Shown: piece by piece, positions 20,493-56,264 of the stretch
Position numbering within the stretch: position 1 is the stretch's first letter
Layout of the letters: every line of letters begins with the position of its first letter
Assembly: GCA_031270865.1 (NCBI GenBank)
Contig: JAISWI010000019.1
Location: 62,001-126,000 of the forward strand
Origin: Oscillospiraceae bacterium
GTDB lineage: Bacteria > Bacillota > Clostridia > Christensenellales > Aristaeellaceae
DNA: 64,000 nt
Reading direction: 5' to 3'
Notes under the pieces: generated by a model
Database searches by the model: none
What the model was told of the DNA's origin: nothing
What the model saw: only the letters and a program-made list of their open reading frames with translations
Position numbers and translations under genes: made by a program

Positions 20493-21617
20493 TCACATTG
20501 TTGGCAAATCCACCCAAAACACGTCGCTGCCCGACGCTAGGACCGCCCTATCGCCGTCCGTCACGCACAGCACGCGGTCTATCGGCGCCGGGAGGGTATG
20601 CGCCGTGAACGAGGTCGAGCCGTACCGCACGGTATACACGGTGTTCGCGGCGAAGGCGTACACGCCCCGCGAGCCCAGCCTCACGTCCAGGCATGGCGCG
20701 GGCAGGCGCAGCAGCGTATCTCCGTTCCCGGCGATCAGCCGCGCCTGGCGTATAGCCGCGCCAGTGTCATTCCCCGACGAGGCGGCGGGCGTGAACAGCG
20801 CGATGGAGTCGCCCGTAACGGCGCGGACGTCGCGGGCCTGCCAGCCGTACACCGTCACCGGCTTTATATCGGCGGAGGCGACGCAGCGGTAGTCGTAAGC
20901 CGTCGCCGACGCCGAGTTGATCATCATCAGGTTGTTCCCGCGCTGGAACACCTTGTACACTATCTGGTCATACAGCGTGACGTTGCCCGTCACCTCGTAG
21001 CGTTTGGGCTCGTAAGCGGTCGCCAGGCTAGCGGGAACCACCCCCTTCGCGTCGATGCCCACGGTCAGCAGGCGCAGGTCCTGCGGGCCGAAGAAGCTCA
21101 TGTCCAGCATGTCGGCTTCCCCGGCGTCGATCGTCCAGACCAGTGAACCGTTATGGGTTATGACATCTATGCGCTGTACGCCGTCCGCGCCGGTATACAG
21201 CGCGGCGGCGTACGACGCGCCTATCCGCGCGAACTGGATCGGCGCGTCCATCCTGTCGTTATACAGGATATCCCCGCCGGCGTCCAGTATGTATATCTGC
21301 ACGCCGCGCCAGGCCACGATCATCTGCCCGGACGCGTAGAACCGCCCGTCCTCGCCCAGCGGCAGCAGCGGCCGCGCGGCTCCCTTCGGGCTGACAAAGT
21401 TAAGCTGCCCGCCGGACAGGTACAGCAGCCCACCGCCGAAGGGCGCGTACGCGTCCCCGGGCGAGAACGCCAGCGCCTGCGGCCCCGACCCGCCTCGCGG
21501 TATCCTTAGGACCGCGTACACAGCCAGCAGCGCTATAGTTATAATTATAGCAATAATAATAAACCGTCGAAGCATCATCTGGGCGCGGCGGCGCGCGGAG
21601 CGCTTATCATTTCTCAT
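20493..21617 (-). CDS. DUF5711-like membrane-anchored beta-propeller protein
   Basis: 374 residues. A basic cytoplasmic start and one transmembrane segment (about 16-36) lead to an extracellular region rich in repeated beta-strand patterns (FSPGDAYAPFGGGLLYLSGGQL, then many GxxxxVxIxDAxG-like blades). This matches the DUF5711 family of clostridial membrane-anchored propeller proteins, whose function is unknown. The ATG overlaps the end of dnaA by 11 nt, so it is likely translated from the dnaA transcript. Confidence 0.7.
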   Translation of the reverse strand: MRNDKRSARRRAQMMLRRFIIIAIIITIALLAVYAVLRIPRGGSGPQALAFSPGDAYAPFGGGLLYLSGGQLNFVSPKGAARPLLPLGEDGRFYASGQMIVAWRGVQIYILDAGGDILYNDRMDAPIQFARIGASYAAALYTGADGVQRIDVITHNGSLVWTIDAGEADMLDMSFFGPQDLRLLTVGIDAKGVVPASLATAYEPKRYEVTGNVTLYDQIVYKVFQRGNNLMMINSASATAYDYRCVASADIKPVTVYGWQARDVRAVTGDSIALFTPAASSGNDTGAAIRQARLIAGNGDTLLRLPAPCLDVRLGSRGVYAFAANTVYTVRYGSTSFTAHTLPAPIDRVLCVTDGDRAVLASGSDVFWVDLPTM

Positions 21618-22935
21618 GGATTACCCGCCTGAGGTCCTCCACCATCAGCTTGACCGACGGATTCGTCGTCAGCTCCTCGGCAATCTTCTCGCACGCGTGG
21701 ATGACCGTGCTGTGGTCCCGGCCGCCGAACTCGTCGCCTATGCGCAGAAGCGAGTCGCCGGTCATCTCGCGCGTGAGGAACATGGCGATCTGGCGCGGCG
21801 CGGTGACGCCGCGGTTACGCTTGTTGCTCTTAAGGTCCTGGATAGTCACCGAGCAATACTCGGCTACGGCCTGCTGGATCAGGGAGCAGGTGATCCGCTT
21901 GGGGTCCTTCACCGTTGATATGTCGCGCAGCGCGTCCTGCGCCAATTGGGGCGTGATGGGCTTTCCGGCCAGCTGCGCGTAGGCGACCACGCGCGTCAGC
22001 GATCCCTCCAACTCTCGGATGTTGGAATCGATGCGCTCGGCTATCAGGTGGATGACCTCGTCCGTGACCTCTATCCGGTCCGTCTCCGCCTTCTTGCGCA
22101 GTATCGCGTTGCGCGTCTCAACGTCCGGCCTTTGCACGTCGGCTATCAGTCCCCACTGGAAGCGCGAGACCAGCCGCTCCTCCAGCCGCGCGATCTCGTT
22201 GGGCGGTCGGTCGGAGGATATGACGATCTGCTTATTCGCCGTGTGCAAGGCGTTGAAGGTGTGGAAGAATTCCTCCTGCGTCGAGTCGCGCCCGGCGATG
22301 AACTGGATGTCGTCGACCATCAGCACATCCACGTTGCGGAAGCGCTCGCGGAACTCCGCGTTCTTGTTCTTCTGGATCGCGCTGATCAGCTCGTTGGTGA
22401 ACGACTCCGAGCTGATGTACAGCAGCTGGGTGGACGGGGTCTGCTGCTGGATAAAGTGGCCGATAGCGTGCATCAGGTGAGTCTTACCCAACCCCACGCC
22501 GCCATATATGAACAGCGGGTTATACGCCTCCGTCGGGGCCTCGGCGACCGCCAGCGCGGCCGCGCGGGCGAACCTGTTCGAGTTGCCCACCACGAACGTG
22601 TCGAAGGTATAGCGCGGGTTGAGCGTCGTCATCGAGCCCGCCTTGCCCTCGGTTTGCGCGCGCTGGAGCCGGGCCGCCGCCTCCTTCTCGGTCAGGAACT
22701 GCAGGTTGACCCGCCGCCCGGCCGACACGTTGACCGCGCTGCCTATCAGCGTGACATACTTCGATACCATCGAGCGGTGCAGGGGTTCCTCCCCGCACTC
22801 CAGCAGCAGCGAGTCTCCGGTGAACTGGATAGGCCTCAGCGTCGTGATCCACGCGTCGAATGAAACCGGGCTCATCTCCGCCCTTAGCAGGTCGCTCGCC
22901 TTGTCCCATACCTCTATGTGTGTTTCCCGATCCAT
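21607..22935 (-). CDS. dnaA: Chromosomal replication initiator DnaA
   Basis: 442 residues, normal size. Domain I is at 1-80, followed by a short linker and an AAA+ domain with Walker A GGVGLGKT (145-152) and Walker B VDVLMVDDIQFIAG. The C-terminal domain IV has the DnaA-box recognition motif GGRDHSTVIHA. DnaA-ATP binds the boxes just upstream and opens the origin. No dnaN follows: the next gene is the DUF5711 gene, which overlaps it, and no rpmH-rnpA group lies upstream, so the usual Firmicutes origin gene order is broken here. Confidence 0.98.
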   Translation of the reverse strand: MDRETHIEVWDKASDLLRAEMSPVSFDAWITTLRPIQFTGDSLLLECGEEPLHRSMVSKYVTLIGSAVNVSAGRRVNLQFLTEKEAAARLQRAQTEGKAGSMTTLNPRYTFDTFVVGNSNRFARAAALAVAEAPTEAYNPLFIYGGVGLGKTHLMHAIGHFIQQQTPSTQLLYISSESFTNELISAIQKNKNAEFRERFRNVDVLMVDDIQFIAGRDSTQEEFFHTFNALHTANKQIVISSDRPPNEIARLEERLVSRFQWGLIADVQRPDVETRNAILRKKAETDRIEVTDEVIHLIAERIDSNIRELEGSLTRVVAYAQLAGKPITPQLAQDALRDISTVKDPKRITCSLIQQAVAEYCSVTIQDLKSNKRNRGVTAPRQIAMFLTREMTGDSLLRIGDEFGGRDHSTVIHACEKIAEELTTNPSVKLMVEDLRRVIHEK

Positions 22936-23279
22936 CCCGAAGCCCCTCCCTATTTGGAGCGGGGACCCGTCCCGCCGCCGCCTGTGGATAACCCGTCCGG
23001 TTAGCCGCGATTAACTTGGAATAATTGTGGATAAATCCGCATATATCCACAGGTTGTCCACAACCTTCCGGCTGGCCGGCGCGAATCATCCCCCAAAAAC
23101 AGCCATATGATAGCAAATTCTGAGCGTTCTGGCAAGGGCAGGCAGCGCTTTGGGAATATTCTCCACAATCGCGGCCAGGCGTTGTCCACACGCCGGGCTG
23201 TGGAAAACGTTCGCGCGGTTAGCTTATGTTTATATAGCTTAAAGAAGCGGGCCAGCGCCGCTTTCATGCCGATTCGTCA
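22936..23279. other. oriC-like region: DnaA-box cluster upstream of dnaA
   Basis: A 344-bp noncoding stretch holding seven DnaA-box-like 9-mers. TTATCCACA occurs twice on the minus strand (22983-22991, 23026-23034) and TTGTCCACA twice (23054-23062, 23182-23190). One-mismatch boxes are ATATCCACA (23043-23051), TTCTCCACA (23159-23167) and TTTTCCACA (minus, 23199-23207). An A+T-rich tract at about 23222-23245 could be the unwinding element. Position and composition fit a chromosomal replication origin. Confidence 0.85.
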
Positions 23280-51141: not shown

Positions 51142-51341
51142 TTATCAACAACTGCTGCTGGATTGTTGATAAGATTGTGGATAACGGTTCGTTTCCATTC
51201 ACATAACGCGGTTTGCTGTGCACAACCCGGTGGATACAGTGAAAAAAACCTTGTCGCAAGCCTGTTCTTAAAGCGAGTTATCCACAGCCGCCGGAGGCCG
51301 GGTTATCAACACGAAATGTGCGTCATATTTTCTTAAAATAT
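51142..51341. other. Second DnaA-box cluster with A+T-rich palindrome
   Basis: Boxes: TTATCCACA twice (minus 51176-51184; plus 51278-51286) and TTATCAACA three times (plus 51142-51150; minus 51164-51172; plus 51303-51311). A TGTGCACAA-like site lies at 51217-51225. ATATTTT-CTT-AAAATAT at 51325-51341 is an A+T-rich palindrome. Noncoding; 28 kb from the dnaA-side cluster. It could be a second part of the origin or a DnaA-titration/regulatory site. Confidence 0.75.
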
Positions 51342-51360: not shown

Positions 51361-51482
51361 GCGGGATGATTCTGTCGGACCGGCTCGTTTTATAGATGAA
51401 GTTTCAAACAACAGGCGATTGACCGCAAATCTCCCCCTTCCGAATAAGCGCGGCGGATTCCCCTCCCGCCGCGCGTTTTTTT
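51361..51482 (+). ncRNA. Leader-RNA-like element A with terminator (class unknown)
   Basis: Contains GCGGGATGA (51361-51369), CCGGC (51380-51384), CGTT (51386-51389), ATGAAGTTTC (51396-51405) and TGACCGC (51420-51426). It ends in a strong terminator: GCGCGGCGG (51448-51456), loop, CCGCCGCGC (51466-51474), then a T-run to 51482. The start and end can close a GCGG/CCGC stem. Upstream half of a tandem pair. Confidence 0.6.
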
Positions 51483-51510
51483 ACGGAATCAGTAAGTTTT
51501 TTTATTGGCG

Positions 51511-51619
51511 GCGGGATGAAAACCAAACGCGCCGGCGTTATATGAATGAAGTTTCTAAGACGCAGCGTGACCGCTGTAGAACCGGCGCGAACCCCTCCGC
51601 GCCGGTGTTTATCTTTTTT
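51511..51619 (+). ncRNA. Leader-RNA-like element B with terminator (class unknown)
   Basis: A second copy of the element: GCGGGATGA (51511-51519), CCGGC (51532-51536), CGTT (51536-51539), ATGAAGTTTC (51546-51555) and TGACCGC (51568-51574). GCGGGATGA-to-ATGAAGTTTC spacing is 35 nt in both copies. A terminator follows: ACCGGCGCG (51581-51589), CGCGCCGGT (51598-51606) and a T-rich tract to 51619. It ends 17 nt before the ferritin-like gene start, with the Shine-Dalgarno between. Confidence 0.6.
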
Positions 51620-51636
51620 GGGGGAGGAGACTGCGC

Positions 51637-52101
51637 ATGATGGATGGTAAGACCGGAGGGATCGTCAACGCCATGGCTGTGGCGAGCGAGATGGAAAAGC
51701 GCGGCATCGCCCTGTATAAACGCGCGGCGCGTATCGTCTCCGACGACAGGCTGAGAGGATTGCTGCTGCGCCTGTTGGATGAGGAGAATTCGCACCTGCG
51801 CTACTTTGAGTCGCTGCGCGGCGACACGCCGGGCGAGGACGAGATCGGCGGGTCGCTTTCAGCCGCGCTGGCCGCCGACGCGTTTATTCCGGGCGGGTTG
51901 ATGCAGATGGCCGGGGAAGGCGCGTTCGAATCAATGGAACGTATGCTGGACGCGGCAATCCAGGCGGAGAATGACTCCATCGATTATTATGGGAAGATGC
52001 TGGAAAACGCGTCCGGAGAGGTTAGGAATCAGTTGGAAGAGGTGCTTAGCCAGGAGCGTGGGCATCTATCCGAGTTGAATGGGTGGAGGTACGGGGAATA
52101 G
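51637..52101 (+). CDS. Ferritin-like/rubrerythrin-like protein
   Basis: 154 residues, all-helical. Conserved Glu/His pattern of a ferritin-like diiron fold: ASEMEKRGIALYKRAAR, EENSHLRYFE and, in the second half, AIQAENDSIDYYGKM and LSQERGHLSEL. Likely binds non-haem iron in oxidative-stress or iron handling. ATG 51637 follows GGGGGAGG. The only gene behind the tandem leader elements with two terminators, so it is probably controlled by termination/antitermination. Confidence 0.8.
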   Translation: MMDGKTGGIVNAMAVASEMEKRGIALYKRAARIVSDDRLRGLLLRLLDEENSHLRYFESLRGDTPGEDEIGGSLSAALAADAFIPGGLMQMAGEGAFESMERMLDAAIQAENDSIDYYGKMLENASGEVRNQLEEVLSQERGHLSELNGWRYGE

Positions 52102-52131: not shown

Positions 52132-52165
52132 AGGGTTTGTTGTAAGCGCGCTTACAACAAACCCT
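52132..52165. repeat. 34-bp perfect palindrome
   Basis: Arms AGGGTTTGTTGTAAGCG (52132-52148) and CGCTTACAACAAACCCT (52149-52165) pair without any mismatch. No T-tract on either strand, so it is not a normal intrinsic terminator. Lies between convergent genes. Confidence 0.9.
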
Positions 52166-54641: not shown

Positions 54642-56264
54642 ATGATATCCTCAGGTATAGTTGGACGAGTGGGGGTGGCGCGTACGGATACGGGGTACAA
54701 ACGCAGACTGCTGATGCTGCAGGGTGCGCAGGGACAAACCGGGTTCACGAACATCGAGCAGTCAGGCTCACGGATCATTATCCAGATGCAGGCGGTTGGC
54801 CTTGAGCGCACCGCGAGCGACATTCACGGCTACCTGGTATCCCTGCGCAAGCGCCGGAGGCTGGACTGCGGCCGCATCCGCGTGGACTCGCGAGGCCAGG
54901 GCGGGCTGCTACGCGAATACCGCGGGACCGACGAGCTTGACGACATGGAACTGGCTGACTTCGACGCGATAGCCATCACCGGATGCGGCGAGGTCCTGCT
55001 TGTTGGGAACCTCAACGCTGGCAGAGCGGACTGGGATGCCGTCCGCTCGGTATGCAAGCCGGAGCGTTACCAGCGCGCCGCCTCCGCGCCTCAGTATGAG
55101 CGCGTCGACGGCGTAGGCCTGTTTACCGCCGGTAAAACCGTGGAACCCGCCAGGTATGAACCCGCGCCCCGCGCCGCCGAAGCCATCATCGAGAGGATGC
55201 AGCCCAACACGCCCGAGCCAACGCCCGCCCCGGCTATAACCCCGGCAGCCGCGACTTCTCCCGAGCCGGTTGCCGAACCCACCATCGAGCCAGCAGCCCA
55301 ACCAGCCGCCAAGCCTGCCGAATCCATCCCCCAGCCGCTGGCAGACTTGATCTCATTGCTGGCTTCCGCGCCTATGGAGACGATCCTCGCCATGACCGAC
55401 GCGCTGAAGGCCGCGCGTCAACCCGCCGCTGGGAAGGTTACCGCCGTTGAGCAGATCCCGGCTGCTGGGCCGGTACTGGCTGCAGAACCGATCCCGGCTA
55501 CGGAACCGGTACTGACCGCAGAACCGATACTGACTACGGAACCGATACTGACTACGGAGCCGATCCCGGCTACGGAACCGATCCCGGCTACGGAACCGAT
55601 CCCGGCTACGGAACCGATTCTGGCTACGAAACCGATCCCGGCTACGGAACCGATTCTGGCTACGAAACCGATCCCGGCTACGGAACCGATTCTGGCCACG
55701 GAACCAATCCCGGTTGCGGAACCGATCCCGGCCGCCGAACCCATCCGTGAGGCCGTGCCCGCAGCCGCGCCGGATTCAACCGTGGAACCCGCCGCCGACA
55801 TCGGCGATGATACCGACATAATATTCCGCCAGCCAGCGATACCTGCAATGGGAAACGGCAAGCGGACAGCCAAACGCGGCTTCTTCCGCTCCGCCAGAGC
55901 CCCTGAACCCGAAGGGGATTGGCCGATATGGGGCGCGTACCGCAAACCCGTGTGGGATTGGCCGGAGGAGGCCTCCGACCTGCGCGAGGTATTCGAGCGC
56001 GGCGCCCCCAGCGACGACGTGAGCTTGCCGGGATGGCAGTTCGTCCGCTCCCCATGCGCGTTGAGCGGCGAGGAGAGCCTGTTGGGTGTTATGGTGGAGG
56101 GCGACCGCGTTACCAGGACTGCCGCGCTGTACAGGGGCGGCGACGGCGCGGAGCCTCCGGCCGGGCTTACTGGATACACCTTCGACCGGGGTCTGGGCGC
56201 CGGATACTGGGTGCGCTGGCGCGATTACGGCAGGACTGCCGCCGCCGCCCGGTCCGCCATTTGA
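54642..56264 (+). CDS. Hypothetical protein with a long TEP repeat linker
   Basis: 540 residues from the ATG at 54642; GTG at 54669 or 54675 also fit, and no clear ribosome site decides. An N-terminal globular part (about 15-150, YKRRLLMLQGAQGQTGFTNI ... ADFDAIAITGCGEVLLVGN) is followed by a Pro/Glu/Ala-rich linker (150-400). Within the linker, 269-365 is an in-frame tandem of a 6-residue ATEPIP-type unit. The C-terminal part (about 405-540) has many Trp and Gly residues. No signal peptide or membrane segment. No family recognised; divergent from vanW. Confidence 0.7.
   Translation: MISSGIVGRVGVARTDTGYKRRLLMLQGAQGQTGFTNIEQSGSRIIIQMQAVGLERTASDIHGYLVSLRKRRRLDCGRIRVDSRGQGGLLREYRGTDELDDMELADFDAIAITGCGEVLLVGNLNAGRADWDAVRSVCKPERYQRAASAPQYERVDGVGLFTAGKTVEPARYEPAPRAAEAIIERMQPNTPEPTPAPAITPAAATSPEPVAEPTIEPAAQPAAKPAESIPQPLADLISLLASAPMETILAMTDALKAARQPAAGKVTAVEQIPAAGPVLAAEPIPATEPVLTAEPILTTEPILTTEPIPATEPIPATEPIPATEPILATKPIPATEPILATKPIPATEPILATEPIPVAEPIPAAEPIREAVPAAAPDSTVEPAADIGDDTDIIFRQPAIPAMGNGKRTAKRGFFRSARAPEPEGDWPIWGAYRKPVWDWPEEASDLREVFERGAPSDDVSLPGWQFVRSPCALSGEESLLGVMVEGDRVTRTAALYRGGDGAEPPAGLTGYTFDRGLGAGYWVRWRDYGRTAAAARSAI
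55447..55735 (+). repeat. 18-bp tandem repeat (in-frame minisatellite)
   Basis: About 15 units of a CCGGCTACGGAACCGATC-type 18-mer encoding Pro-Ala-Thr-Glu-Pro-Ile, with variants such as ACTGACTACGGAACCGAT. In phase with the reading frame, so length can change without frameshift. It may vary between strains. Confidence 0.92.

Follow-up and report, generated by a model that had tools for sequence, protein, structure and literature searches.

Tandem predicted ECF-sigma-driven, CU-rich small RNA genes ahead of a ferritin-like gene in a clostridial genus

Two related repeat units lie directly ahead of a ferritin-like gene in the window, the 64,000-nucleotide stretch of DNA that was analysed. The best explanation, to which we assign a probability of about 0.8, is that they are tandem genes for CU-rich small RNAs (sRNAs), driven by an ECF sigma factor and each ending at its own terminator, and that the RNAs act in trans while some transcription reads through into the ferritin-like gene. 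Sequence comparison establishes the identity and geometry of the predicted promoters, the conservation of the units, the predicted folding with covariation, and relatives in three genera that include a stand-alone copy. The RNA family is absent from Rfam. Sigma-dependent CU-rich sRNAs are a known kind of regulator, and the tandem layout leading into a ferritin-like gene is unusual.

The units are 150 bp apart and start at 51361 and 51511. The first-pass annotation had described paired copies sharing several blocks at a spacing of 35 nt, and this was confirmed: GCGGGATGA is found at 51361 and 51511 and ATGAAGTTTC at 51396 and 51546, with CGGGATGA, CGTT and TGAAGTTTC in identical register in both units. 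The window has just two instances of the pattern ATGAAGTTTC-N6-20-TGACC (0.00 expected from shuffles), and only two occurrences of ATGAAGTTTC-N4-24-TGACCG are present in the whole genome. Unit 1 is matched at an E-value of 2.9e-6 in the genome of the window (G000) by R3, a covariance model of the unit 2 type, so that the model treats it as related to unit 2 and the two units are homologous. The terminator ascribed to each copy was located at 51448-51482 (terminator 1) and 51581-51619 (terminator 2), the latter indeed ending just ahead of the Shine-Dalgarno sequence GGGGGAGGAG, which was read from the sequence at 51620-51629 on the + strand. The call of a ferritin-like target also held. The open reading frame at 51637-52101 (+ strand, 154 aa) is of the rubrerythrin/DUF2383 type, with agreeing matches to Pfam Rubrerythrin (2.2e-6) and also DUF2383, and to the ferritin-like diiron protein in PDB entry 1vjx (3.1e-5). 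Between this gene and a convergent AI-2E-type transporter gene there is a perfect inverted repeat, GGGTTTGTTGTAAGC GC GCTTACAACAAACCC (52133-52164), that does not have a T-run.

Conservation was examined in four genomes of the genus, namely G000 and three others reached via the ferritin-like protein, which are metagenome-assembled genomes of three further species. Both units were found at the same place in all four. The fixed part, which aligns without gaps in all eight copies, is CGGGAWGA-N16-CGTY-N7-TGAAGTTTC, and the sequence of the 16-nt interval varies. Some of the blocks first listed as shared therefore stand for the genus (CGGGAWGA, CGTY, TGAAGTTTC and the type of terminator loop are kept in the four genomes), while CCGGC and TGACCGC are not kept. 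Identity among the four copies of unit 2 was 0.40 in the spacer, 0.83-1.00 in the boxes and 0.83 in the 62 nt after TGAAGTTTC, and the mean column identity of its predicted transcript was 89%. For unit 1, TGAAGTTTC is identical in 4/4 genomes, and only the 5' end, the CU-rich stretch and the terminator are kept; neither the sequence nor the structure of its 5' hairpin is conserved. RNAalifold, run over the whole block including the boxes, returned 0 consensus pairs. Invariant boxes on either side of an interval that varies in sequence and is constant in length suggest that promoter elements in the DNA, and not pairing in an RNA, are what is conserved.

CGGGAWGA-N16-CGTY is predicted to be an ECF-sigma promoter. 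Its two instances in the window, both on the + strand, are P1, with a -35 element (CGGGATGA) at 51362-51369 and a -10 element (CGTT) at 51386-51389, exactly 16 nt past the -35, and P2, with the same elements at 51512-51519 and 51536-51539, again 16 nt apart. P1 was assigned from the invariance of its -35 element in four genomes and from the occurrence of this type of motif before ECF orthologs, and P2 from motif conservation. A search of the four genus genomes yielded 30 sites, compared with 3 for the reversed control, and many of the sites are intergenic and oriented toward the start of a gene. The genus genes behind this promoter are the ECF sigma gene itself and those for an MreB homolog, a peptidoglycan transglycosylase, an SH3-domain secreted protein and a YhaM-like nuclease. 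In G000, six of the nine counted sites with CGGGATGA-N16-CGTY are intergenic and five lie within 250 nt before a gene start, whereas at other spacings (8 to 24) only 6/46 are intergenic and none falls within 200 nt before a gene start. The raw counts of CGGGATGA-N-CGTY, 17 at 16 nt versus 14 at 15 nt, are not decisive on their own, and the 16-nt spacing is set apart only by the intergenic test.

A homolog of the ECF gene was found in 66 of 80 family genomes, and the 260 nt upstream of the best 30 of these 66, which come from 21 genera, were scanned for the motif. GSAWGA-N16-CGTY was present upstream of 21/30 orthologs, while each of the other spacings between 8 and 24 gave 0-1/30 and the reverse strand at a spacing of 16 gave 0/30. 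The boxes are therefore the promoter type of the ECF sigma factor's own gene, as autoregulation predicts, and all eight units share its fixed geometry. The sigma gene of the window's genome is at G000:C27:9984-10481. The gene after it encodes a protein with one transmembrane segment, which could be the anti-sigma factor. Two of the ECF loci (L117 and L119) have tandem ECF-type promoters before the sigma gene, one of the GGGAWGA type and one of the TGCAAGA type. The motif also occurs at 1501-1528 of L095 (G000:C35:50570), with no obvious ORF after it, and at 1501-1528 of L096 (G003:C278), where only short ORFs follow. The upstream sequences of these two loci, from two species, are alike, and they may mark another non-coding RNA of the ECF regulon.

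It is highly improbable that the repeats are DNA operators or the ends of a mobile element instead of promoters of RNAs. Such sites typically combine a fixed spacing with a variable interior, and an array of DnaA boxes lies just upstream of the units. Against this, the blocks stand at the same place in four species, the part predicted to be transcribed is conserved with compensatory changes, and the motif precedes the ECF gene itself in the orthologs counted above. The array consists of five DnaA-box-like 9-mers of the TTATCAACA/TTATCCACA types within 51142-51311 (at 51142+, 51164-, 51176-, 51278+ and 51303+), in the same order and at nearly identical spacing in 4/4 species, and a conserved AT-rich stretch, GTCATATTTTCTTAAAATATTACC, lies between it and unit 1. 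We regard the array as origin-like or DnaA-regulatory; it is about 28 kb from dnaA, and GC skew gave no clear verdict on it as an origin. The apparent dnaA gene, judged by its N-terminal sequence, is on the minus strand at 21606-22935, and the intergenic region that precedes it contains two perfect DnaA boxes (22983-23034). Elsewhere in the window, an 18/36 bp tandem repeat within an ORF (55454-55732) encodes a Pro/Glu/Ala/Thr-rich repeat of the EPIPAT type.

Transcription from ECF promoters starts 6-8 nt past the -10 element. With CGTY as the -10, TGAAGTTTC would lie at about +1. The predicted +1 of unit 1 is at about 51395-51397, giving a 5' start of (A)UGAAGUUUC and a transcript of about 93 nt (51396-51489, + strand) that was delimited from the identity of TGAAGTTTC, the R3 match and the fold. 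Sequence and fold place in it a CU-rich, single-stranded stretch that resembles an anti-Shine-Dalgarno sequence, UCUCCCCCUUCC (51430-51441, + strand); in G003, unit 1 has a hairpin loop, GCUCCUCCU, in this region. Terminator 1, assigned by hairpin comparison, has the stem GCGCGGCGG/CCGCCGCGC, the loop AUUCCCCUC and a T-run. The predicted transcript of unit 2, supported by identity, covariation and fold, is about 74 nt long (51546-51619, + strand) and consists of a single-stranded 5' part, a short hairpin (GCAGCG UGAC CGCUGU, 51562-51577) seen from fold and covariation, and the terminator. Terminator 2, identified by covariation and hairpin comparison, has the stem ACCGGCGCG/CGCGCCGGU, the loop AACCCCUC and a T-run that reaches the Shine-Dalgarno sequence; both terminators are on the + strand.

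The fold z of the predicted RNAs ranged from -1.6 to -4.1, with -2.3 for unit 1 and -3.65 for unit 2. For the unit-2-type RNA, all 84 of the 84 pair cells hold over six sequences from three genera (14 pairs), and 5/14 pairs have compensatory changes on both sides, a value that was reached in 3/500 shuffles. The C-rich terminator loops AUUCCCCUC, AACCCCUC, AUCCCCUC and their relatives are conserved over the three genera. Among the 181 terminator-like hairpins identified in 608 kb of DNA from the family, only 11 have loops of this type, and 7 of the 11 belong to these units. The C-rich loops would fit Shine-Dalgarno regions in general. Among 123 genes compared, the local ferritin site ranked 8, 22 and 52, and it was not exceptional as a pairing partner of the C-rich motifs.

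Relatives beyond the genus were sought with two covariance models: R1, made from the genus sequences alone, and R3, rebuilt to include the sequences of G069 and G015 and applied to 308 genomes of the family and to a sample of 396 from the order. R1 had found these two relatives, each in another genus, at 5.5e-12 (G069) and 2.5e-7 (G015); R3, which contains both sequences, scores them at 4.1e-18 and 1.1e-16. Convincing R3 E-values were confined to six genomes, 6/308 in the family and none in the order sample, and the model also matched unit 1 in G000, G002 and G003. In G069 a single copy again stands upstream of a ferritin-like gene and adjoins an aconitase-type gene. In G015 (genus g13) the single copy stands alone beside an unrelated gene: a second terminator comes after it, and then a gene of the YetF type. 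Overall, a ferritin-like gene comes right after the terminator in 5/6 unit-2-type copies, G015 being the exception. No ferritin homolog was detected in the G015 genome, a draft that is without a close ECF ortholog (best match 3.8e-22, 34% identity). The -35 element is weaker in both relatives (GAAAGA in G015, GGACAG in G069), and both keep the 16-nt spacing. The units have the features by which an sRNA gene is recognised: their own predicted promoters and terminators, a conserved structured RNA and, from the stand-alone G015 copy, independence from the neighbouring gene.

Other searches added no further members. Matches of the covariance models in G153, G118, G263 and other families of the order (E 3e-4 to 7e-3) were rejected because those inspected looked like ordinary gene terminators or unrelated sequences without TGAAGTTTC. 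An exact pattern scan of 84,980 GTDB genomes gave only chance-like matches outside the genus, nearly all within ORFs, and a loose pattern of the whole element with 3 mismatches was too noisy. The element was not found in the 450 nt upstream of seven ferritin homologs of other genera, some of these loci being in the wrong orientation; its absence at the ferritin loci of other genera rests mainly on the whole-genome covariance search.

The first-pass annotation had read the layout as that of tandem riboswitches or antitermination leaders, with iron or redox as a tentative signal. On such a reading the shared blocks would make up an aptamer for iron, redox state or another signal and would turn each terminator on or off ahead of the ferritin-like gene. 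The duplicated units, the terminators just before a Shine-Dalgarno sequence and the ferritin-like gene that follows, in G069 as well, have the layout of such leaders, and UUCYGUCG in the unit 1 spacer can pair with an arm of terminator 1 in 4/4 genomes over 7-8 bp, several of them G-U. This reading was abandoned as very unlikely. The boxes GCGGGATGA and CGTT contain the -35 and -10 elements of a promoter that recurs before protein genes, so that the predicted transcript begins only after most of the putative aptamer. The lack of consensus pairs when the boxes are included and the stand-alone copy away from ferritin in G015 also speak against it, and no antiterminator of more than 6 bp that would compete with a terminator was found within the predicted transcripts. 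No aptamer fold was found in these units. A riboswitch or k-turn aptamer built from GCGG-GATGA...TGA-CCGC was considered and rejected, since the three other species do not keep TGACCGC and there are no consensus pairs. The units had been said to belong to no recognised class, and the Rfam search recommended at that time agreed: the window scan gave no match to the element at the gathering score, and an Rfam search with E-values up to 10 gave only sub-threshold sRNA terminators. The only hit of the window scan at the gathering score was a T-box leader at 224-463 on the + strand (RF00230, 104.9 bits).

A stronger competitor, although still unlikely, is that the units are ECF promoters with attenuating leaders only, with no role in trans and with read-through regulated by a protein or by translation. 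Terminator 2 abuts the Shine-Dalgarno sequence, so that in G000 and G001 a further promoter would not fit between them, the + strand before the ferritin-like gene showed no sigma-70-like promoter, and a purely cis role is conceivable in the five of six RNA-carrying genomes in which that gene comes next. Yet unit 1 would then be a redundant leader, the G015 copy leads only to a second terminator and an unrelated gene, and simple attenuation has no need for the conserved terminator loops and TGAAGTTTC.

We therefore favour tandem ECF-driven sRNA genes with read-through, which may work as follows. The ECF sigma factor would be released, probably by envelope stress, and P1 and P2 would be switched on jointly with the wall-synthesis genes and the sigma gene. 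Both RNAs, of about 74-93 nt, would accumulate, each ending at its intrinsic terminator. Their 5' end (A)UGAAGUUUC, C-rich loops and CU-rich stretches may pair with the G-rich ribosome-binding regions of target mRNAs and so block translation, as in Listeria LhrC. Some polymerases would pass terminator 2 and transcribe the ferritin-like gene; such read-through is suggested by the lack of any other visible promoter for the gene on the + strand, and it would bring the gene into the same regulon. More tentatively, the whole may be a dual-function element, in which an ECF-driven RNA acts in trans through its C-rich loops, as the repressing arm of an envelope-stress response, and regulated read-through of the terminator makes the ferritin-like protein in cis.

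The closest parallel is with LhrC1-5 of Listeria monocytogenes, related copies with their own promoters that are induced by cell-envelope stress. Each is a short RNA with a hairpin, a CU-rich single-stranded stretch and a CU-rich terminator loop, and LhrC5 is part of the ferritin operon and binds the ribosome-binding site of fri (PMC4132741; PMC13350326). The multiple related copies, own promoters, hairpin, and CU-rich stretch and loop are also present in our units. However, LhrC requires the two-component system LisRK whereas these units are predicted to be ECF-sigma-driven, and the ferritin-like protein encoded after them is a different one, in a bacterium of another order. With Rfam RF00616 they reach 19.7 bits, where the gathering score is 110, so they are not members by sequence. 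The sigma-E-dependent sRNAs MicA and RybB of enterobacteria (Salmonella) (PMC1804206) and FoxI and FoxJ of Fusobacterium, ECF-dependent sRNAs with a cytosine stretch as seed (PMC11005410), are likewise the non-coding component of a response governed by an ECF sigma factor. These repress mRNAs of outer-membrane proteins, while here the promoter set includes mreB, transglycosylase and yhaM genes and the sRNAs form a tandem duplicate ahead of a ferritin-like gene; a sequence relation is not established. Staphylococcal C-rich sRNAs, the sigma-B-dependent RsaA (PMC3961350) and the iron-sparing IsrR (PMC9410917), also carry C-rich sequences, which in their case pair with Shine-Dalgarno regions, and are either controlled by an alternative sigma factor (RsaA) or linked to iron (IsrR), but they depend on another sigma class or a repressor and have no sequence relation to these units. 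Riboswitch-terminator leaders also occur in tandem with terminators before a gene, and differ in that the boxes here lie upstream of the predicted +1.

The case illustrates that promoter boxes at a fixed spacing can pass for an RNA aptamer. Most of what is known of ECF-sigma sRNAs comes from Gram-negative bacteria. A case in Clostridia that converges with Listeria LhrC in connecting CU-rich RNAs to ferritin would therefore bear on whether such wiring has evolved more than once. The promoter consensus GSAWGA-N16-CGTY allows the ECF regulon to be read, and the units offer a testable sRNA arm for the response of a sigma factor whose gene is conserved over most genera of this Oscillospiraceae-type family. 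If the dual-function reading is true, Clostridia would have an sRNA arm of an ECF response that is convergent with LhrC5 and ferritin in Listeria and with FoxI/FoxJ in Fusobacterium.
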